From Deltaproteobacteria bacterium (GTDB lineage: Bacteria > Lernaellota > Lernaellaia > Lernaellales > Lernaellaceae), in assembly GCA_003170555.1 (NCBI GenBank), contig PMZC01000052.1:7613-42608 (forward strand): a stretch of DNA of 34,996 nucleotides, given 5' to 3'. Shown piece by piece: positions 7,912 to 34,873 of this stretch; positions within the stretch are counted from its first letter, which is position 1, and the number at the start of each line of letters is the position of its first letter. A program made the position numbers and the translations under genes. The notes beneath the pieces are model-generated. The model did no database searches. It worked only from the letters and a program-made list of their open reading frames with translations, and was not told the DNA's origin.

Positions 7912-9708
7912 TTACTTCCAGGCGCCGTAGATCGCCAGCCGATGACCCGCGGCGCCGAGCTCGGCCAGCACGACGGCGTAATTGGTCGCGGTGTCATACA
8001 GGCGCACCTGGCCGCCCTGGGTGTCGGTCGACTGGCGCAGCTCGCAAATTTCCGGGCGCCCGTCGTTGTCGAAATCCCACGTCGAGCACGGAAACGCGGT
8101 GACGCCGGCGGGCATATCTTCCTGATGCAGCGGCGCGGCGTGGTCGCCGGCGAATACCGCCCAAGCCGAGTGGATGGTCGACGGCGCCGAGCCTTCGGCG
8201 GTGAGCGCGTACGCCAGCAGCGCGGGATCGGCGAGGGGGCTCAGGTACAACGACCAGCCGCCGGCGGTGAGCAAGCCGCCTGCGGGCAGCGGCATGTCGT
8301 AATAGAACCCGGCCGGCTGGAGATCGGTTCCATACAAATCAATATGCAGCGCGCCGCTGACATCGGTGGAGAAGGGCACGATGGCGAACTCCTGCTCGCC
8401 GTGGCCGCGCAAATCAACCGCGGCGGCGAGCCAGGGTTCGACGGTCCAGGCTACCGGATAATACAGACCTGACGCCAAACCTGACGCGACCTGCTGCAGG
8501 GCGAAATTGTCGCTGTTCGGCCCGACCCACAGCGACGGCGCGCCGCCGGCGTCGGAACCCCACAGCACCACATCGGGCAGCTCATCGCCGTCGAGGCTCA
8601 TCGAAACCACGCCACTGATCGCGGTGATATTCGCGAGCGTACCTTGCGCCAACGTCGCGCCGCCGCGGTCGAACAAGACGAAGCGCGAGCCGGATGAATC
8701 GGCTTTGGGGTACGCCACGAACCCGGCGCAGGTGCGGTCGTCCGGCGAGCGCACCATCAGTCCCGCCGAGCTCAAAGCGGCCTGGCGCAGATCGAGCGGA
8801 CCGAAATCGCCGACCGCGTGGCCGCCGCGGTCGATCCACTGCGCGCGCCACTGCGGGCTGTTCGTGTCGTATAGATCGTATCGCTCGAGCAGAAACGCAT
8901 CGGGTCCGCTCGCGTCGCCGCAGGCGGAGCCCACCGCGCCGGAAAAATTGACGCCGTGCAGCGCCAGCCCTTCGCCGTTTCCGCCGTTGATCGTCCACAA
9001 CTCGTCGTAGCCGTTGGCGGCGTCGATCGCCTTCAGCGATCCGCTGTGACCGTCGTCGATCGGCCGCGAAGAAAGCAGCAGGTCGGGCCGCCCGTCGCCG
9101 GTGATGTCGAGGTTCGGGTACGCGAAAACGTATTCGTTGTTCAGCCAGCCGGTGTCGTAGGCGACGGTGAAGCCCGGCCCGTCGAACACGATGACGCGGC
9201 CCTTGGTGACGACCGTCGATCCGTTGAGGTCGATGTACTGCCGCTGGCTGATTACCTCGCAGCGGCCGTCGCCGTCGAGGTCGGCGAGATAGTGGTAGCC
9301 GAAACCGTAAGCGCCGAGCGCGACCGGATCGATAACGTGCACGACGGCGCCGTCAACGGTCTTCACCGTGACCTTGACGTTCATCTGCCCGCCGTCCGTG
9401 TAATGCTCTTCGAGCAAATATTCCGGGCCGTCGCCCGTGATGTCGCACGGCGTTTGCAAGCCGTAGTACGGCGCGGTGTCGTCGTCGCTCGTGTCGTCGT
9501 CGACATCGTCGTCTATGTCGTCATCGACATCGTCGTCGGCGTCGTCATCGAGATCGTCGTCGCTCGAATCGTCATCCGCGTCGTCGTCGACCTGATCGTC
9601 GTCGGCGTCGTCATCGCTCGACGAACCGGCGCCGCCTCCGCCGCTCGAACACGCCGCGCACAGGCAAAGCAGCGCCGCGAAGATCATTACCCAATACGGT
9701 CTCTTCAT
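7912..9708 (-). CDS. Large Asp-linker lipoprotein with FG-GAP/VCBS-type repeats
   Basis: A predicted exported lipoprotein of 598 residues. The ATG at 9708 gives a signal peptide with a lipobox ending near Cys20 (LCAAC). A short Gly/Ser run follows, then an Asp-rich linker of about 55 residues built from DDD plus A, S, V, I or T. The rest resembles an integrin-type FG-GAP/VCBS propeller. Calcium-loop motifs recur: DLDGDGRCEVI, DITGDGRPDLLL, SLDGDELPDVVLW and DFDNDGRPEIC. The region before the first of these, PCDITGDGPEYLLEE, also fits the pattern. No catalytic motif is visible. The linker is encoded by a GAC-rich quasi-repeat at 9477-9620 that may be prone to slippage. The likely role is a surface-exposed binding or structural protein, held off the membrane by the charged linker. 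Confidence 0.82.
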   Translation of the reverse strand: MKRPYWVMIFAALLCLCAACSSGGGGAGSSSDDDADDDQVDDDADDDSSDDDLDDDADDDVDDDIDDDVDDDTSDDDTAPYYGLQTPCDITGDGPEYLLEEHYTDGGQMNVKVTVKTVDGAVVHVIDPVALGAYGFGYHYLADLDGDGRCEVISQRQYIDLNGSTVVTKGRVIVFDGPGFTVAYDTGWLNNEYVFAYPNLDITGDGRPDLLLSSRPIDDGHSGSLKAIDAANGYDELWTINGGNGEGLALHGVNFSGAVGSACGDASGPDAFLLERYDLYDTNSPQWRAQWIDRGGHAVGDFGPLDLRQAALSSAGLMVRSPDDRTCAGFVAYPKADSSGSRFVLFDRGGATLAQGTLANITAISGVVSMSLDGDELPDVVLWGSDAGGAPSLWVGPNSDNFALQQVASGLASGLYYPVAWTVEPWLAAAVDLRGHGEQEFAIVPFSTDVSGALHIDLYGTDLQPAGFYYDMPLPAGGLLTAGGWSLYLSPLADPALLAYALTAEGSAPSTIHSAWAVFAGDHAAPLHQEDMPAGVTAFPCSTWDFDNDGRPEICELRQSTDTQGGQVRLYDTATNYAVVLAELGAAGHRLAIYGAWK

Positions 9709-19556: not shown

Positions 19557-21344
19557 CTAGAACGTCGGGAGGATCGTCGAGAGGTCGAAGTTCGTCCAGA
19601 GGTTCATCGCCAGGCTGTCGTAGTTCAGCAGGTGGGTCGGATCAAAGGCGTTCGGATCGACGCCGGCCGGCAACTGGATGCCGACCAACACGACGATGTC
19701 CGAGTCGCTGGGGGTCACGCCGAGGTCGGCGACCGGCGGCGTGTAGGACGTCTCCGCGCCGTTGATGACCGCGAGGCTCCAGGGCCCGGTGGTCGGCACG
19801 TAGATCGCCAACACGACGCTCACGTCGGCCGCGGACTGGAAGGCCCAGGTCACGGTCGCCGTGCCCGAATCCCAAGCGGTATTGAGGCTGTCGAACAGCG
19901 GCAGGAAGTCGCTGTCGGCTATGGCGACGCCGCTCGACCATTCGCTCAAATCATTGGCGAACTTGAACACGAAGCCGAGATTCAGGCTGGTCAGTCCGGA
20001 GGTCAGCAAGTCGGTCTTGCCGGCGACCAGGTCATAGCGCGCATCCGGCACGTCCACCGACTGCACGGTGACGGAATTGCCGGTATCCTTGATTTTCATG
20101 CCCAACGGCAGCAGCGCGCGATTCGGGATTTCCGCGGCCAACACCGCGAGGTAATCGTAATCGCCGCTGGCGCCGCTGAACGTGACCGTCGTGCCTTTCG
20201 CCGCGGCGGGAGTCAGCATGTCGATGTTCGCAGCGCCCGTGCCGTCCCACGTCGGGTTGGCGCCCACGTAGTTGAAGTTGAAGCCGTTGTTGATCAGCGG
20301 TTTGACCACGAGGTCGGCGACCGCGCCATAGTTTCCGCCGATCGCATCGATAATGATCTGACCGAGGGAAATCACGTTGAAGCCGGCGCCGCCGATATTC
20401 ACCTCCGCGGTCAGGCCTTCGATCGGATACTGGCTCAAACCGGCTAGCATCGGCACCATGATCTGGGTATTGCCGTCGCTCGTGGCGGTGACGCCGTAGG
20501 TCAGAATGGACACGTTGAGGTCAACGGCCGGGAAGTAGATGCTGCGCGGCGCCGCCAGCGTGTCGCTGGTCGGCGTGCCGAAGTTGTACGAGTAGTTGAT
20601 GTCGAACGTCGCGGTCGAGAACAGGCCGTTGAAGTCCTGGGACAGGAGCGTGTAGCGCGAGACGCCGGGAATCGCCGCGCCGATGTAGATGGGCGAGCTC
20701 AGCAATTGAGTGAGACCGCCGGTCGGGTTCTGCAGGCCCAGGGGCGAACCGCCGGTGAGGAAATCACCAGGGGTCGAGTCGGCGTAGGTCAGGCCGTAGT
20801 CGTTCGGGCGGAGGCGGAACGCCATGATCGCCGCGTCGACCTGATAAGCCCAGCTCCAGTAGCCGTCTTTGAACGCCGTCACCAGGACGTTGGCCCGGTC
20901 GGCGGTGACCGTCGCCATGCCGCTCGCGTCGGTGGTGTAGGTGTTGCCGCCCGACAGCACGGTCGCGCCTTCGAGAGGCGTGCAATCGGAATCGTTGAAT
21001 ACGTACACGGTGATCGTGCCGCTGATCGACCCGCCGCCCACGGTCTGGCCGGCATCGAGGCCGGTGATCGCCGGCAGATCGCAGTACCAATCCGGCGGCG
21101 GCATTACGGTGTCGTCATCCGGAGCGGTGTCGTCGTCGACGGTGTCGTCGTCCACCGGGGTGGTGTCGTCATCCACCGGGGTAGTGTCGTCGTCCACCGG
21201 AGTGGTGTCGTCGTCCACCGGGGCGGTGTCGTCGTCGGCGCCGTTGTCATCGTCGCTGCTGCTCTTGCTGCTGCCGCCGCACGCCGTCATCAGGCCGGCC
21301 ATAAGCAACGCAACGAGAATGAGGAGAAACCATTTACTCTTCAT
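19557..21344 (-). CDS. Asp-linker lipoprotein with carboxypeptidase-regulatory-like domain
   Basis: A surface lipoprotein of 595 residues. The ATG at 21344 has GGGAG six bases upstream; the TTG at 21350 is less likely. The lipobox ends at Cys22 (LMTAC). A Gly/Ser run and an Asp linker with five near-identical PVDDDTT-type repeats follow, to about residue 90. Residues about 95-165 (GSISGTITVYVFNDSDCTPLEGATVLSGG, TTDASGMATVTAD, VTAFKDGYW) look like a carboxypeptidase-regulatory/CnaB-type beta-sandwich. The remaining 400 residues are beta-rich with no motif I recognise, though the end (VQSAADVSVVLAIYVP-like stretch and TPPVADLGVTPSDSDIVVLVG) suggests another sandwich domain. The linker DNA at 21111-21240 is a GAC-rich tandem repeat. 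Confidence 0.82.
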   Translation of the reverse strand: MKSKWFLLILVALLMAGLMTACGGSSKSSSDDDNGADDDTAPVDDDTTPVDDDTTPVDDDTTPVDDDTVDDDTAPDDDTVMPPPDWYCDLPAITGLDAGQTVGGGSISGTITVYVFNDSDCTPLEGATVLSGGNTYTTDASGMATVTADRANVLVTAFKDGYWSWAYQVDAAIMAFRLRPNDYGLTYADSTPGDFLTGGSPLGLQNPTGGLTQLLSSPIYIGAAIPGVSRYTLLSQDFNGLFSTATFDINYSYNFGTPTSDTLAAPRSIYFPAVDLNVSILTYGVTATSDGNTQIMVPMLAGLSQYPIEGLTAEVNIGGAGFNVISLGQIIIDAIGGNYGAVADLVVKPLINNGFNFNYVGANPTWDGTGAANIDMLTPAAAKGTTVTFSGASGDYDYLAVLAAEIPNRALLPLGMKIKDTGNSVTVQSVDVPDARYDLVAGKTDLLTSGLTSLNLGFVFKFANDLSEWSSGVAIADSDFLPLFDSLNTAWDSGTATVTWAFQSAADVSVVLAIYVPTTGPWSLAVINGAETSYTPPVADLGVTPSDSDIVVLVGIQLPAGVDPNAFDPTHLLNYDSLAMNLWTNFDLSTILPTF

Positions 21345-28094: not shown

Positions 28095-28682
28095 ATGGAA
28101 ATTCACCCGACGAGAATACCCGGTCGATGGCGTGAAGGGTACGCGCTCGATATTCAGACAGTAAAAAGCGTTTGTCTGGGCGAGGATGAGTATGGTCATC
28201 CCCGCTTTGAAAACGAGCGGTCGGCGATGGGAGAATGTCTCAAACAGCTTAAGTACGACGGAGATTTGTCCGTCGTACCGAAACTTGTCGAAACGGCGGT
28301 CGCCTTCATCGAATGGTGGCAGGTCGAACCGGACCTCATCGTACCCGTTCCACCGTCGAGACCGAGAAATTTACAACCGGTGATTTTGTTGGTCGAGGAG
28401 TTCAGCAACCGCCTCGGGATTCCGGCGGTCTTTGATGCGGTGACGGCGAGTCGAGTACCAAAAGAAATGAAGGACGTTGATGACTTCAACGAGAGAATGC
28501 GGTTGCTCGATGGAGCTTATACGGCCAGCCGGGAAAAAACGGAAGGCAAACGAGTTCTGCTCTTTGACGATTTGTTCCGCTCCGGTGCGACGATGAATGT
28601 GATCACTTCTCTCATCCTGGATCAAGGCGGCGCCATCGACGTTTATGCTCTGACGCTCACCCGCACGCGGAGCAACCGATGA
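28095..28682 (+). CDS. ComF-like phosphoribosyltransferase
   Basis: A type I phosphoribosyltransferase-fold protein of 195 residues. The PRPP-binding motif VLLFDDLFRSGATMN (about 154-168, acidic pair Asp158-Asp159) is intact. A ComF-like DLIVPVPPSRPRNLQPV lies at about 80-97. The N-terminal GRWREGYALDIQTVKS...RSAMGECLKQLKY block is typical of a subset that pairs with unknown genes rather than competence operons. There is no zinc-finger N-terminus as in true ComF. The ATG at 28095 is followed at once by family sequence; its Shine-Dalgarno (GGAGG) is ten bases away. The last four bases overlap the start of the SLOG gene (ATGA), so the two proteins are translationally coupled. The substrate is unknown; a nucleotide-like substrate is an inference. 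Confidence 0.85.
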   Translation: MEIHPTRIPGRWREGYALDIQTVKSVCLGEDEYGHPRFENERSAMGECLKQLKYDGDLSVVPKLVETAVAFIEWWQVEPDLIVPVPPSRPRNLQPVILLVEEFSNRLGIPAVFDAVTASRVPKEMKDVDDFNERMRLLDGAYTASREKTEGKRVLLFDDLFRSGATMNVITSLILDQGGAIDVYALTLTRTRSNR

Positions 28683-29230
28683 CCAAGGTCTTCATTGGCG
28701 GATCACGCAAGATCAGCCGGCTCAGCGCCGACGTTCGGCGAAAAATCGACATGATGGTCGAGAAACGACTTCATGTTCTGGTTGGTGACGCCAACGGTGT
28801 CGACAAGGCGGTGCAGTCTTATCTGCAAGACAAGCGTTACGAGCTCGTCGAGGTCTTCTGCGCGGGAAGTGACTGTCGAAATAATGTTGGTGGATGGCCC
28901 ACCCGCGCCGTCGCGGTCAACTCCAAAAAGAGAGACTTTGATTTCTACGCGACCAAGGATCGCCTCATGGCGTACGAGGCGTCGCTCGGGTTCATGATCT
29001 GGGATGGTTCGAGCGTCGGTACGCTGCTCAATGTGCTCCGCCTGATTTGGCGGCAAAAGAAAGTGGTGGTGTACAACGTCCCAACGAAAGCTTTTTCTGA
29101 ACTGAGCAACGAAACGGACTGGGAATCCTTTCTTTTGCAATGCCCGCCTGATCTTCGACAACGTCTCGAGCACAAGACAATAGATGAACGGTTCTCGGAT
29201 GCGCCAAGCTTGCAGATGAAGTTGATCTGA
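28679..29230 (+). CDS. SLOG-domain (DUF2493/YspA-like) nucleotide-sensor-type protein
   Basis: A 183-residue Rossmann-like SLOG protein. The LOG/YspA pattern is visible: KVFIGGSRKISRL (first strand and loop), VLVGDANGVDKAVQSYL (about 33-49, the GxxxGxD-type ligand loop), KDRLMAYEASLGFMIWDGSSVGTLLNV (about 93-118, with the DGxSxGT segment) and KKVVVYN. SLOG proteins bind nucleotides or their derivatives and appear as sensors or processing enzymes in stress and conflict systems (established for the superfamily). The start ATG overlaps the TGA of the phosphoribosyltransferase gene by four bases. The last about 50 residues are unlike the core and may be a partner-binding extension. No effector such as a nuclease or membrane pore is adjacent, so function is open. 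Confidence 0.82.
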   Translation: MTKVFIGGSRKISRLSADVRRKIDMMVEKRLHVLVGDANGVDKAVQSYLQDKRYELVEVFCAGSDCRNNVGGWPTRAVAVNSKKRDFDFYATKDRLMAYEASLGFMIWDGSSVGTLLNVLRLIWRQKKVVVYNVPTKAFSELSNETDWESFLLQCPPDLRQRLEHKTIDERFSDAPSLQMKLI

Positions 29231-29367
29231 TTGCGGGCGGCGGTCCGGCGCTTTTCACCGGTGCGTCGGCGGTAATCACGAATGGGGTTGGCAGCGATTC
29301 TTTCGTTGACAGGGTTTCATACAACCGGTATCCTTCCAATCAGACAAACGCGCACCAGGAGAAGCCG

Positions 29368-29519: not shown

Positions 29520-30422
29520 ATGAACCGACTTCACTTGAATCGTGTCGCCTCAGGCCGCCTCGCCGCGTTATTCGATGACTCCCGCGAAGCAGAAGCCATG
29601 CTGGCCGCCGATCCGGGCTTGCACAATATCGTCGGCCTGGAACGCGCCTTCGCCGCCGACCCGCGAGCGATGGATTTCCTCAATTCGGATTCGCCCTTCT
29701 TTCATCTGAAGCAATTGTCCACGCGGCTGTACCTCGATTTCTTTTGGCCGGCGATCGAGAGCGTTGCAATCGACGCGCACGTGCTCGATGCCGGGTGCGG
29801 CGTCGGCCGCTTCACGCTGCCGCTGGCGAAGCGTTTCGCGCATGTGACCGCGTTCGATGCCTGCCCGTCGCCGTTGGACGCGTGCGAAAGTCATTTGCGC
29901 GAGGCGAAGCTGGGCAACGTCGATCTACAGTGGGCCGATTTCGCCTGGCTCGACGAATTGCCGGCGGCGTCGTTCGATCTGATCTGCGCCGTCGAGGTGT
30001 TGTGCTACACGGCGGAGGCCCCGGCGGCGTTGCAGCGGCTGACCCGCGTCGCCAAGCCCGGCGCGCCGCTCCTGCTTTCCGTTGAAGCGCAGCCCGGCGC
30101 GTTGTGCGGCCAGGCGATGGAGCCGGCGCAACTGGCCGCGGTGCTGGCGGGTAATCCGCTGTTCCTGGCGCACGACCGCTGGGTGCGTTATTACGACCGT
30201 GCGGCCGTGGCCGAATTGCTGACCGGCTGCGGCTGGCGCAACATGCATCTCGCCGGCTCGCACTATCTCGCCGAGGGCGCCTTCTGGCAGGCGATGGACG
30301 ACCGGCGGCTCGACGATCCGGCGTATGTCGAGCGCATCGTCGCCGTCGAGAACCTGTGCCGCGAGCATCCGCTGGCGCGCGATCTGGCGCGCGTGCTGTG
30401 CGCGATCGCGAGGAAAGAGTAA
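29520..30422 (+). CDS. Class I SAM-dependent methyltransferase
   Basis: A 300-residue Rossmann-fold methyltransferase. Motif I is VLDAGCGVGRFTLPLA (about 88-103). The motif II Asp is in VTAFDACPSPLDACESHL, motif IV is FDLICAVEVLCYTAEAP, and motif V/VI is PGAPLLLSVE. The first about 85 residues are a distinct helical extension with DFLNSDSPFFHLKQLSTRLYLDFFWPAIE. The ATG at 29520 follows GAGGG by four bases. The next gene starts 3 bases after its stop. It is the first gene of a four-gene unit with three radical SAM enzymes, so its substrate is probably an intermediate of that pathway. Substrate identity cannot be read from the sequence. Confidence 0.87.
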   Translation: MNRLHLNRVASGRLAALFDDSREAEAMLAADPGLHNIVGLERAFAADPRAMDFLNSDSPFFHLKQLSTRLYLDFFWPAIESVAIDAHVLDAGCGVGRFTLPLAKRFAHVTAFDACPSPLDACESHLREAKLGNVDLQWADFAWLDELPAASFDLICAVEVLCYTAEAPAALQRLTRVAKPGAPLLLSVEAQPGALCGQAMEPAQLAAVLAGNPLFLAHDRWVRYYDRAAVAELLTGCGWRNMHLAGSHYLAEGAFWQAMDDRRLDDPAYVERIVAVENLCREHPLARDLARVLCAIARKE

Positions 30423-30425
30423 GCG

Positions 30426-31856
30426 GTGGCGCGCGTCTTCCTCATCAACCCGGGCATGGATGTCGCCGCCGGCTTCGGCGAATACCAAAGCTTGATGGAG
30501 CCGATGCCGAGCATCGGGCTGGCCTACCTCGCCGCGGCGTGTCGCGCGGCCGGGCATGAAATCCGCGTGCTCGACAACTTCGTGAACAACCATTCCGTCG
30601 ATCGCGTGGTGGAGCTCACGCGCGAATGGCGCGCCGACGTGGTCGGCCTGTCGATGCTCACGCCGACGGCGATGTCCACCGCCGCGCTCGGCCGGGCGAT
30701 TCGCGAACGCACGGGCGCCAAGGTCGTGCTGGGCAATCTGCACGCCGCGCTCTTTCACGAAGACCTGCTCCGCGAAGGCGCCGGCGACGCGGTGGTGCAC
30801 GGCGAGGGCGAGGTCGTTTTTCCGAAACTGGCGCAGGCGCTGGTCGACGGCAAACTCGGCGAGCCGCCGCCCGGCGTCAGCACGCGCAACGGCGACGGCG
30901 TGCGTGCGAACCTGCCGCCGGTGCTCATCGAAGACCTCGATGCGCTGCCGCGACCGGCGTGGGATCTGTTCCCTTGGCGGCGCTACACCTTTCTGCCGTT
31001 CGTCACGGTGGCCAAGCCGTGCCTTTCGATTTTGGGTACGCGCGGCTGCCCGTTCCGCTGCAAGTTCTGCGCGCTGGGCTACCAGGGCAATCGCGTACGC
31101 ACGCGCTCGCCCGACAACATCGCGGCCGAGGTCGAATGGCTGGTCCGCGAGTTCGGCATTCGGCACGTGGGCTTCGTCGATCCGATTTTTCCACTGAGCA
31201 AGAAGCACGGCCTGGCGACCTGCGAGGCGATTCGCGCGCGCCGCATCCCCGGCGAGTGGTGGTGGACCAGCGAAACGCGCGTCGATGTGATCGACGAAGA
31301 GATGTGCCGCGCGATGAAGGCGGCGCGGTGCAAGCGCATTCTCTTCGGCGTCGAATGCGGGGTGGATGAACTGCTGGCGGGCGTCGGCAAGAATTTCACC
31401 ACCGATGATGCGCGCCGCGCGATCGGCGCCGCGCGGGCGGCCGGGCTGCAAATCTCCGCGTTCTTCATGCTCGGTCTGCCGGGCGAGACGGCGGCGATGA
31501 CCCGCCGCACGATCGACTTCGCGCGCGAGCTCGATATCGACTTCGCGAAATTCGGCATCACCATTCCGCTGCCGGGCTCCGAACTCTACGACAACCTGGT
31601 GCGCGAAGGGCGCATCCAACCCGGCGACTGGGGCAAGTTCACCACGTTCAACCCGGACCCCGACGCGCTGCCGTACGTGCCCGCCGGCCTGACCGCGCGC
31701 GAGTTGCAGCGCCTGCACCGTTGGGCGACGTGGCGCTTTTACATGCGGCCGAAAATGATCTTCAAACATGTGTTCGTGATCCGCTCCATCGGCCTGAAGC
31801 AGATCGTCAACGGCGCGTCGATTCTGCTGCGCCAACTTTTCCGAGGGCGGCTGTAA
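30426..31856 (+). CDS. Cobalamin-binding-type radical SAM enzyme 1
   Basis: A 476-residue radical SAM protein of the BchE/HpnP/HpnR-like group. The N-terminal cobalamin-binding-like Rossmann domain (about 1-150) has PSIGLAYLAAACRAAGHEIRVLDN, ADVVGLSMLTPTA and GDAVVHGEGE. The usual linker ALPRPAWDLFPW follows. The cluster ligands are Cys208, Cys212 and Cys215 in TRGCPFRCKFC. SAM-binding elements such as GHVGF-type strands and FFMLGLPGETAAM are normal. The GTG at 30426 lies 3 bases after the methyltransferase stop, with AGGAAAG upstream. The basic, aromatic C-terminus is typical of members acting on lipid-like substrates, though not diagnostic. It probably methylates an unactivated carbon or performs a ring or linkage rearrangement. 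Confidence 0.9.
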   Translation: MARVFLINPGMDVAAGFGEYQSLMEPMPSIGLAYLAAACRAAGHEIRVLDNFVNNHSVDRVVELTREWRADVVGLSMLTPTAMSTAALGRAIRERTGAKVVLGNLHAALFHEDLLREGAGDAVVHGEGEVVFPKLAQALVDGKLGEPPPGVSTRNGDGVRANLPPVLIEDLDALPRPAWDLFPWRRYTFLPFVTVAKPCLSILGTRGCPFRCKFCALGYQGNRVRTRSPDNIAAEVEWLVREFGIRHVGFVDPIFPLSKKHGLATCEAIRARRIPGEWWWTSETRVDVIDEEMCRAMKAARCKRILFGVECGVDELLAGVGKNFTTDDARRAIGAARAAGLQISAFFMLGLPGETAAMTRRTIDFARELDIDFAKFGITIPLPGSELYDNLVREGRIQPGDWGKFTTFNPDPDALPYVPAGLTARELQRLHRWATWRFYMRPKMIFKHVFVIRSIGLKQIVNGASILLRQLFRGRL

Positions 31857-33404
31857 ATGCGCGTGCTGCTGGTGCGCCCACCGAAATATCTGTGGCCGTA
31901 TATGAACGAGCAGGACAACTACCTGCTGCCGCAGGCCATCGTATATCTCGGCGCGGAAGCGCGGCGGCGCGGGCACGCGGTGACGCTGATCGATTGCCTG
32001 CCGTCGCGCCTGGGTTGGCGCGGTCTCGAGCGCACGATCCGCGAACTGCAGCCGCAGGTCGTCTGCGCGGGCGACAGCGAAACGCTTTATCAACACGAAA
32101 GCGGCCGCGTGTTTCGGCTGGCGAAGTCGATTGATCCGCACATCTTCACCGTCGCCGGCGGCGTACATTTTTCGCACGCGTGCGATCATGCGTTCGCGAA
32201 CTACCCGATCGACGCCATCGTGCGCGGCGAGGGCGAACGCACCTTCGGCGAACTGCTCGACACGCTGGCCGGCGGCGGCGAGGTCAGCGATGTCGCCGGT
32301 CTTGCGTTGCCCGACGGCGGCGGCGGCATGCGCTACACCGCGCGGCGCGAACTGATCGCCAATCTCGACGACCTGCCGTTCCCGGCCTACGACCTGCTGC
32401 CGATGGAGCGCTACGGCGCGGCGCGCTATTTGTTTTCGCCCGGCGGCGTCACCATGCACCATAGCCGCGGCTGCGTGGACGGCTGCGCGTATTGCGCGTG
32501 CTGGCTGCAGATGGCGCGGCGCGACGGCGAACCGCCCGGCGAAACGCTGCGGCCGCGTTGGCGCACGCGTTCGGTGGGGCCGGTGGTCGACGAAATGGAA
32601 ACGCTGCGCCGGCGCTACGGCAAATCGTGCATCGTCTTCGTCGACGACACGTGGAACGTCGAACCAAGATGGAGCGACGCCTTCGCCGACGCGTTGTTGC
32701 GCCGCCCGCTCGACGTGGTCTGGTTCGCCTTCATGCGCGCCGATCTGCTCGCGCGCGACGAGGAGTCGGGCCTGTTCGCCAAGCTGATGCGCGCCGGCCT
32801 GACGCACATCTGCATCGGCATGGAGCGCGCCGACGACGCCGAGTTGCGCGAACTGCGGAAGCACAACATCCAGGTGGATCGCACGACGGCGCTGGTGCGC
32901 AAGCTGCGCAAGAAATACCCGTCGCTGTTTTTGCAGACGACGTTCATCGTCGGCCTGCCGCAAGATACGCCGGAAAGCCTCGACCGCCTGCTGGCGTATG
33001 TGGAAAGCATCGACCCGGATTATCCGGCGTTTCATCCGCTCACGCCGGTCCCCGGCACGGCGCTGTGGAACGAGGCGCAACGCGACGGGCGGCTGGAGAT
33101 CACCGACTTCACGCGTTACGACTGGATGACGCCGGTGATGCGCACCGACGCCATGACGCGCGCGGAACTCGAATACAAAATCTGGCAAATGAACTCGCGC
33201 TACCTGAACCCGTGGCGCATTCTGCGCGGCGTGCTGTCGCCCCACACCTACCGCCGGCGCATGTACCTCTGGTGGCTGCTGGTCAGCCTGCGCGTGGGTT
33301 GGGATTACGTGCTCGACCGCGTGCGGCCTTCGCGTTCGACGCGGCGCAAAACGCAATTGTCGGATTACGTCGGCATGGTCAAGCCGGATTGGTACGACCA
33401 GTGA
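31857..33404 (+). CDS. Cobalamin-binding-type radical SAM enzyme 2
   Basis: A 515-residue radical SAM protein whose ATG follows the stop of enzyme 1 directly (TAAATG). The N-terminal domain (about 1-150) has LPQAIVYLGAEARRRGHAVTLIDCLP, QVVCAGDSETL, TVAGGVHFSHACDHAF and DAIVRGEGERTFGEL. The linker LPFPAYDLLPM follows. Cluster ligands are Cys206, Cys210 and Cys213 in SRGCVDGCAYCACW, with a further Cys two residues on. The rest of the barrel includes CIVFVDDTWNV, THICIGMERADDAELRELRKHNI and TFIVGLPQDTPES. The C-terminal extension is long and basic, with a WLLVSLRVGWDYV segment that may touch the membrane. Its last base pairs overlap the next gene (GTGA). Function within the operon is unknown. 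Confidence 0.9.
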   Translation: MRVLLVRPPKYLWPYMNEQDNYLLPQAIVYLGAEARRRGHAVTLIDCLPSRLGWRGLERTIRELQPQVVCAGDSETLYQHESGRVFRLAKSIDPHIFTVAGGVHFSHACDHAFANYPIDAIVRGEGERTFGELLDTLAGGGEVSDVAGLALPDGGGGMRYTARRELIANLDDLPFPAYDLLPMERYGAARYLFSPGGVTMHHSRGCVDGCAYCACWLQMARRDGEPPGETLRPRWRTRSVGPVVDEMETLRRRYGKSCIVFVDDTWNVEPRWSDAFADALLRRPLDVVWFAFMRADLLARDEESGLFAKLMRAGLTHICIGMERADDAELRELRKHNIQVDRTTALVRKLRKKYPSLFLQTTFIVGLPQDTPESLDRLLAYVESIDPDYPAFHPLTPVPGTALWNEAQRDGRLEITDFTRYDWMTPVMRTDAMTRAELEYKIWQMNSRYLNPWRILRGVLSPHTYRRRMYLWWLLVSLRVGWDYVLDRVRPSRSTRRKTQLSDYVGMVKPDWYDQ

Positions 33405-34873
33405 GTGCGTCGTCGCCTTCCACCGCGCGCGTGGCTTTCCTGCAAGGCAACGCGATCAACGAATCGCTGGGGTTGTGCGACCTCGCGGGACATCTGCGCG
33501 ATCTCGGCGTGACGACGCGGCTGCTCATCCGGCGCGAGGAGCGGCGGCTGGCGGACGAACTGCGTGCGTTCGCGCCCGACCTCGTCGTCATTCCGGCCGA
33601 TCTGCTCGGCCACAACTCGGCGCTCGCGCTCGCGGCGCTGGCGAAATCGGCGACGGCCGCGCCGACGGTTTTGGGCGGCACGCACCCGACCTTTTTCCCC
33701 AATGTGGTGCATCGGCCGCACGTTGATTACGCCTTTGCGGGCGAGGCCGAGGGCGTGGTCACTGATTTGCTCGCGGCGGTGCGCGAGCGGCGCGACCCGT
33801 CGGCGATACCCAACCTGATCGTGCGCGAAGGCGAGGGCGAGCGCGTCAATCCGCTGCGGCCGCTCGTCGAAACCCTCGACGACCTCGCGCTGCCCGACCG
33901 CGAAATCTACTACCGCTATCCGTTTCTCTCGGCGTTCCCCTGGAAGAAGTTCGCCACCGGCCGCGGCTGCTTGAATGCGTGCGGCTTCTGCTTCAACCCG
34001 GCGTATCGCGGCCTGGTCGGGCCGCGCGGCTTTTTCCGGCGCAAGAGCCCGGCGCGCATTTGCCGCGAGATCGACGACGTACGCCGCCGCTGCCGGCTCG
34101 ACATCGTGCACTTTTCCGACGACCTGTTTTCGAGCGGCGAGGGGTGGCTCGAATCGTTCGTCGACGCTTACCGCCGCGCGGTCGCGCTGCCGTTTTCGTG
34201 CAACGTGTTCGCCACGACGATCACCGAGCGCACGGTGCGCCTGTTGCGCGACGGCGGCTGCCGCGTGCTGGCGATGGGCGTCGAGATCGCCGACGAGGAC
34301 GCGCGCGTCCGCCTCTTGAACAAGCCGGTGACCACGGCGCAGATCGTCGCGGCGGCGGCGCTGGTGAAGCAGGCGGGCATCCGGCTGGTGACGTTCAACA
34401 TCCTCGGTCTGCCGTGGTCATCGCCGGCGGGCGACGTGGACACTCTGCTGCTCAACCGCGAGCTCGGCAGCGACCACACGCGCGTCGCCGGGCTAGTCCC
34501 GTTTCCCAAAAGCGCGTTGACGCGGAAGATGATGGACGAAGGCTTCTTGGCCGCCGATTACGACAAGCGCATCTACGAATTGGATGACCTGCCGCATTGG
34601 CCGGCGGAGAGCATTTTCAAAAGGCGCGACGCGGCGGAGACGACGCGGCTCTATCGCCTGTGGCATCTGCTGCTGCGCTGGCGACTGCCGAAGACGACGA
34701 TCCTGCGCCTGCTCCGTTCGCGCTGGGCGGCGGTGCTGACGCCGTTGGCGCTGCTGCTGGGCCTGACCAACGAAAAGCGCATCTTCGGCTTCAGCTGGCT
34801 CACCGGCTTCCGCTACTTCCTGCACGTGAAAAGCCCGGCGCTCAAGACCACGAACTACGTGTCGTTCATCTAA
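33401..34873 (+). CDS. Cobalamin-binding-type radical SAM enzyme 3
   Basis: A 490-residue radical SAM protein. The start is GTG at 33401, overlapping the TGA of enzyme 2 by four bases (GTGA); the frame is open far upstream only as a shadow of enzyme 2. The N-terminal domain has ARVAFLQGNAINESLGLCDLAGHLRDLGV, DLVVIPADLLGHNS, VLGGTHPTFFPN and DYAFAGEAEG. Cluster ligands are Cys190, Cys194 and Cys197 in GRGCLNACGFC. Later SAM-barrel elements include IVHFSDDLFSSGEGW, VLAMGVEIADEDARVRLLNKP and LVTFNILGLPW. A hydrophobic helix near the C-terminus (AAVLTPLALLLGLT, with more aromatic residues after) suggests membrane association. It is the last gene of the unit inside the window. Confidence 0.9.
   Translation: MSASSPSTARVAFLQGNAINESLGLCDLAGHLRDLGVTTRLLIRREERRLADELRAFAPDLVVIPADLLGHNSALALAALAKSATAAPTVLGGTHPTFFPNVVHRPHVDYAFAGEAEGVVTDLLAAVRERRDPSAIPNLIVREGEGERVNPLRPLVETLDDLALPDREIYYRYPFLSAFPWKKFATGRGCLNACGFCFNPAYRGLVGPRGFFRRKSPARICREIDDVRRRCRLDIVHFSDDLFSSGEGWLESFVDAYRRAVALPFSCNVFATTITERTVRLLRDGGCRVLAMGVEIADEDARVRLLNKPVTTAQIVAAAALVKQAGIRLVTFNILGLPWSSPAGDVDTLLLNRELGSDHTRVAGLVPFPKSALTRKMMDEGFLAADYDKRIYELDDLPHWPAESIFKRRDAAETTRLYRLWHLLLRWRLPKTTILRLLRSRWAAVLTPLALLLGLTNEKRIFGFSWLTGFRYFLHVKSPALKTTNYVSFI

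Follow-up and report, generated by a model that had tools for sequence, protein, structure and literature searches.

What brings a methyltransferase gene and three genes for radical SAM proteins with B12-binding domains together, head to tail, in a Lernaellota genome, and on what kind of molecule might their products act? Radical SAM enzymes with a B12 domain carry out reactions that few others manage, and most of them are without an assigned role. The four genes lie near the right end of a stretch of 34,996 nucleotides, all of which was analysed and which is called the window below (C199:7613-42608). It comes from a metagenome-assembled genome of 4.66 Mb in 405 contigs, 84% complete, within the FEN-1099 phylum, proposed as Candidatus Lernaellota (PMC13248872). 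The comparison covered a cross-lineage sample of 386 genomes, seven of them from that phylum (G000 to G006, the source genome being G000) and 379 from outside it.

All four genes are on the plus strand. The first, MT1 (29520..30422, 300 aa, ATG start, with an alternative start possible at 29598), encodes a class I SAM-dependent methyltransferase that matches Methyltransf_11 (4.8e-18) and Methyltransf_25 in Pfam, and its LDAGCGxGRxT motif is invariant among the aligned homologues. Three B12-binding/radical-SAM proteins follow: A (30426..31856, 476 aa, GTG start), B (31857..33404, 515 aa, ATG start) and C (33401..34873, 490 aa, GTG start). In each of them PF02310 exceeds its cut-off of 32.1 bits (77.3, 43.7 and 43.1 bits for A, B and C; 1.2e-21, 2.9e-11 and 4.4e-11), PF04055 (Radical_SAM) is likewise above cut-off (2.1e-23, 1.7e-12 and 2.6e-15), and a CxxxCxxC motif lies inside PF04055, as CPFRCKFC, CVDGCAYC and CLNACGFC, respectively. 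Domains and motifs thus bear out the preliminary description of one SAM methyltransferase with three B12-binding-type radical SAM proteins. A motif check of A, B and C found DxHxxG in none of the three; its absence is usual in the B12-binding radical-SAM class, in which cobalamin is held base-off, His-off (PMC13331322). Judged from sequence, cobalamin binding by A, B and C is plausible. The epithet "cobalamin-type" holds for the PF02310 domain only, and use of the cofactor is putative, the nearest solved relative of A being the sugar dehydratase AprD4.

The junctions are tight. Between MT1 and A stands TAA-GCG-GTG, the sole 3-base gap, where several had been reported; the abutting TAAATG between A and B and the GTGA overlap at the B/C junction, CAGTGAGTG, in which the GTG start of C overlaps the stop of B, are as first described. 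A promoter scan returned one TTGACA-17-TATCCT at 29306-29334, which is uninformative with 0.6 expected by chance, and terminator-like sites showed no excess over chance. An antisense ORF of 1143 aa across the operon was rejected as an artefact of high GC3. All four ORFs are confirmed as real, with no truncated B12-binding/radical-SAM protein among A, B and C, and conservation of order and sequence in other genera carries the four-gene observation beyond chance. B ends in a KPxWY tail that is kept in most of the B clade, a few members having the P without the K, and C ends in ..KTTNYVSFI, of the TxN[YF] type in most C proteins; both tails probably matter for function and provide markers for tracking the set. 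An AlphaFold model of B, with its own sequence alone as input, reached a pLDDT of 41.

Do the four genes travel together? Within Lernaellota, the orthologues of A are 62-76% identical, those of B 60-73% and those of C 58-70%. Three of the seven genomes have MT1-A-B uninterrupted, namely G000, G006 (C38:175219-179077) and G001 (C53:61143-65006), and three others have it disrupted or only in part: in G005 A and B lie near the start of contig C8 and MT1 near the end of another contig, C87; G003 holds MT1, two copies of A, and B, with damaged frames; and G002 has B and MT1. MT1 homologues lie upstream of A/B in G006, G001 and G003. The search for A, B and MT1 in G004 gave paralogues of 37-38% only. 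Between two A copies in G003 (L107:12732-14426) we noted a tryptophan-halogenase-like FAD gene.

The placing of C varies from genome to genome. In the window it directly follows B; in G001 one extra gene, a second methyltransferase (MT2), stands between B and C and overlaps C; and in G006 an overlapping MT2-C pair lies 10 kb on from MT1-A-B. Since C overlaps MT2 in both G001 and G006, at a distance of about 10 kb in the latter, the unit in the window, where MT2 is not adjacent to C, brings together two modules, MT1-A-B and (MT2-)C. The single operon of the preliminary description therefore survives as a multi-enzyme unit with conserved clustering, but C belongs in relatives to a second module with its own methyltransferase. 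One scan of genome contigs with C as query found a single relative, in JAOSJX, the same genome as G003.

In other lineages identity is 39-46% for A and 44-49% for B. Orthologues of both, and MT1, occur in G173, G311, G156, G294 and G125; beyond these five, B is found in G075 and G345, A in G262, and MT1 in G262 and G345. MT1 stands next to B in G173 and G311, and B is followed by A in G156 and G294. The best outside matches of C come from G125, G262, G173 and G311, and G156 has C at a distance of about 10 kb from B-A, with an MT2-like gene close by. Counted over the 379 outside genomes, MT1 occurs in seven, A in six (all within those seven) and B in seven, six of them shared with MT1; the overlap of these sets has hypergeometric p values of 2e-7 to 2e-12 when genomes are counted and of 6e-6 to 6e-9 when they are collapsed to families, the latter assuming 250 families and both using cut-offs that we chose, with the C set defined by tree membership (C-like proteins at E 1e-50 occur in 38 of the 386 genomes). 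Even where unlinked, MT1, A, B and C tend to share the same few outside genomes. As a control, G040, G045, G047 and G092, rich in B12-radical-SAM proteins (30-38 domains), have none of MT1, A and B when the same cut-offs are applied. In a maximum-likelihood tree of 67 radical SAM proteins the B orthologues group at 99/99 and the C orthologues at 100/100, and the A orthologues form two supported groups inside one poorly resolved branch. The set is thus spread patchily across unrelated bacterial lineages. The suggestion that all four genes move as one is upheld by the MT1-A-B linkage, the cross-lineage pairs and the co-occurrence, but not by C, which in relatives sits in a separate module. As a co-occurring set of four, the genes define a testable pathway.

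As to the nature of the substrate, the flanking proteins from 14 genomes were compared all against all. The only families common to at least three genomes, besides radical SAM proteins and methyltransferases, were GT2 (5 genomes), nucleotide-sugar epimerase (NAD-epimerase; 4) and DegT aminotransferase (3). A GT2 gene follows the unit in G001, which also has heparinase II/III (Hepar_II_III), GT1, a Polysacc_synt flippase, an asparagine synthase (AsnB) and a Gfo/Idh-alcohol dehydrogenase fusion beside it. The neighbours in G005 comprise two DegT genes, GT2, an epimerase, Gfo/Idh and a TPP enzyme, and in G173 C stands beside rml-type dTDP-sugar genes, GT2 and an asparagine synthase (AsnB). PMT_2 (GT-C) genes lie within 5 kb of six of 22 loci, where 1.05 would be expected (p about 8e-4, in a test picked only after examples had been seen). 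Of the inert skeletons proposed at first (lipid, hopanoid, tetrapyrrole or glycan), only the glycan is favoured by this comparison; hopanoid, tetrapyrrole and lipid-scaffold genes are not recurrent neighbours. We put at about one in two the probability that MT1, A, B and C modify a sugar of a surface glycan or glycolipid through a so far uncharacterised series of radical steps.

Under this proposal the four genes would encode most of a patchily distributed pathway. A, B and C, proteins of the BchE/HpnJ/AprD4 type, would act in turn, together with MT1, on a sugar unit. Most likely this unit is already part of a cell-surface polysaccharide or a polyprenyl-linked glycolipid, or is later added to one. 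The three successive radical steps, driven by the 5'-deoxyadenosyl radical or assisted by methylcobalamin, might be dehydration or deoxygenation, ring rearrangement, or C-methylation at unactivated carbons, and MT1, an ordinary SAM methyltransferase, would add a methyl cap. The single common substrate, its being a sugar, the types of reaction and the use of cobalamin are what we infer. For A, the thought of sugar chemistry comes from AprD4 and HpnJ, its nearest studied relatives BchE apart, which are distant relatives and both act on amino-sugars. AprD4, the closest solved chain to A in the PDB search (6fd2, E 4.2e-35), is the apramycin C3' radical-SAM dehydratase and deoxygenates paromamine (PMC5461906); HpnJ forms the cyclitol ether from BHT-glucosamine (PMC12583986).

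Several observations weigh against a glycan. Glycan genes are common and tend to cluster anyway. The linkage to sugar genes is clear in G001, G005 and G173 but absent beside the operon in the window, whose flanks hold no clear glycan locus and whose nearest PMT_2 gene is about 18 kb upstream. The MT1-B pair lies amid housekeeping genes in G311 and G173, and B in G125 comes directly after an apparent alternative heme cluster (names read by eye). That the window contains no scaffold enzyme, as first described, is borne out. NN scaffold joints lie just beyond both of its ends, and the contig runs 3.3 kb further to the right, across a joint that starts at the next base; the neighbours there (a lipoprotein-like gene, an SGNH lipase and a chimeric GH2/carbamoyltransferase ORF) are therefore to be used with care. 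At the contig end (L004:8579-8941) a GH2 sugar-binding domain is fused to a carbamoyltransferase C-terminus, which may be an assembly join. To the left, two genes at 28095-29230, one phosphoribosyltransferase-like and one for a 183-aa protein without assignment, have a G+C content of 54% versus 64% and a lower GC3, and were possibly acquired horizontally. Elsewhere in the window, at 678-1706, 7912-9687 and 19557-21344, several predicted lipoproteins carry extended runs rich in Asp (DDDDT/DDDS) close to the N-terminus, as is seen again in other phylum genomes.

Alteration of a lipid skeleton, be it an isoprenoid, a hopanoid or a fatty-acyl chain, strikes us as unlikely. A does score with HpnJ (TIGR03471, 145.2 bits; B 97.5, C 64.3), HpnR (TIGR04367, 134.6; B 97.6, C 41.6) and the ladderane-associated rSAM_ladder_B12 (TIGR04072, 132.6; B 82.4, C 71.0), yet all these values are far under the curated cut-offs of 577.6, 650 and 360, and no Tes-named (tetraether synthase) model appeared among the NCBIfam or PDB matches of the proteins. 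An MMPL transporter with a sterol-sensing match stands beside B in G173, but a recurrent lipid-scaffold family was found in the flanks of none of the 14 genomes. Basic C-termini could bind membranes, and basic and hydrophobic ends had been taken as a hint of lipid substrates. The net charge of the last 60 residues, however, has a median of +8 in 68 sampled B12-radical-SAM paralogues and orthologues; basic ends are general to such proteins and do not discriminate, so the hint has to be given up. The context points to surface glycans more than to lipids.

Could A, B and C instead share no pathway, each being a separate product of a vast paralogue expansion and a neighbour of the others by chance? 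The expansion is real: G000 has 73 B12-binding matches and many contigs dense with radical SAM genes, all seven phylum members carry at least 38-39 B12-radical-SAM domains, or just under, and 91 other genomes mostly carry 0-15, a few 21-38. In relatives C goes with another methyltransferase, and G125, G173 and G311 do not have A, B and C all side by side. Chance is nonetheless quite improbable in our judgement, given an order conserved across genera and pairs conserved across lineages, the finding that MT1, itself no radical SAM protein, co-occurs with them, and the lack of A and B in radical-SAM-rich genomes that lack MT1. MT1-A-B-C is one cluster of many in a phylum packed with such enzymes.

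Other dense loci were seen in passing. Contigs C238 (L113-L114), C392 (L115-L116) and C292 (L121) of G000 are dense with B12-radical-SAM genes, other radical SAM genes and GT-C-like membrane proteins, and C238 holds paralogues of A (47%) and B (38%) as well as a C-like ORF that is truncated and lacks CxxxCxxC. Pairs of a B paralogue with a further radical-SAM gene stand at L118:4423-7030 in G004 and, overlapping, at L119:6752-9329 in G006; the gene that a B paralogue overlaps in G123 (L157) is one for a GT-C-like membrane protein.

A role in a specialised-metabolite or RiPP cluster is very unlikely. It would fit with the weak matches of A, B and C to the ApyD and rSAM_ocin models, with a weak condensation-domain match near the unit in G001 and with the fact that B12-radical-SAM C-methyltransferases are common in such clusters, but no leader-peptide binding domain or biosynthetic core was noticed beside the operon in the genomes seen. 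Least probable of all is a tetrapyrrole route in which MT1 and B, like BchM and BchE (the Mg-protoporphyrin IX monomethyl ester anaerobic cyclase), would methyl-esterify a carboxylate and then oxidise or cyclise the ring: BchE (TIGR02026) is the best NCBIfam match of A and B, BchM-ChlM is among the matches of MT1, and the place of B in G125 would suit it, but A (168.1 bits), B (179.3) and C (57.8) are under the BchE cut-off of 481.35, MT1 reaches 38 bits against 159 for BchM-ChlM, tetrapyrrole genes do not recur in the flanks of other genomes, and BchE is the generic best match for this radical SAM branch.

Returning to the surface sugar, a wider and more tentative proposal can be made. Lernaellota stand out for their extreme stock of B12-type radical-SAM enzymes. 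MT1-A-B-C might possibly represent an undescribed cross-lineage pathway that remodels a surface sugar through three radical-SAM reactions in turn, giving for instance a branched, deoxy or carbocyclic residue. The phylum would then have many pathways of this sort and would use B12-type radical chemistry as a main tool at its cell surface. A literature search pairing cobalamin-dependent radical SAM with exopolysaccharide returned no match.

How, then, does the set compare with known systems? MT1, A, B and C reach no curated NCBIfam cut-off, and close homology of each enzyme to a separate characterised pathway was not found, while clustering is conserved. C scores 76 bits with the BzaD model (cut-off 450); in the PDB search B had only weak matches, to TM_1862, TokK and RimO, and C a weak match to AprD4. 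OxsB, TokK, TsrM and Mmp10 have in common with A, B and C the cobalamin-binding domain, the radical-SAM barrel and the lack of a His-on DxHxxG (PMC13331322), whereas sequence similarity to them is weak or sub-threshold. BchE resembles the unit in that its pathway pairs it with a methyltransferase, but A and B score about one third of its cut-off and no bacteriochlorophyll genes were seen. TIGR04295 (B12_rSAM_oligo), a curated B12-radical-SAM family whose name presumably points to oligosaccharide clusters, gives A 76.6 bits against a cut-off of 400, so A is not of the same family. HpnJ, the second-best NCBIfam match of A, shares its domain layout and works on a lipid-linked glucosamine, but its cut-off is far off and hpn-like genes do not recur beside the operon. 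AprD4, whose substrate is an amino-sugar, shares with A the layout of a B12-binding-like and a radical-SAM domain; its diol-dehydratase model (NF033070, cut-off 500) gives A 138.5, B 45.4 and C 34.0 bits, and A, unlike AprD4, belongs to a multi-radical-SAM set with MT1 and B. No gene for an NADPH-dependent reductase of the AprD3 type, the partner of AprD4, was noticed in the flanks. Set beside these systems, the unit is genuine, conserved and uncharacterised, and it lies within a known enzyme class.
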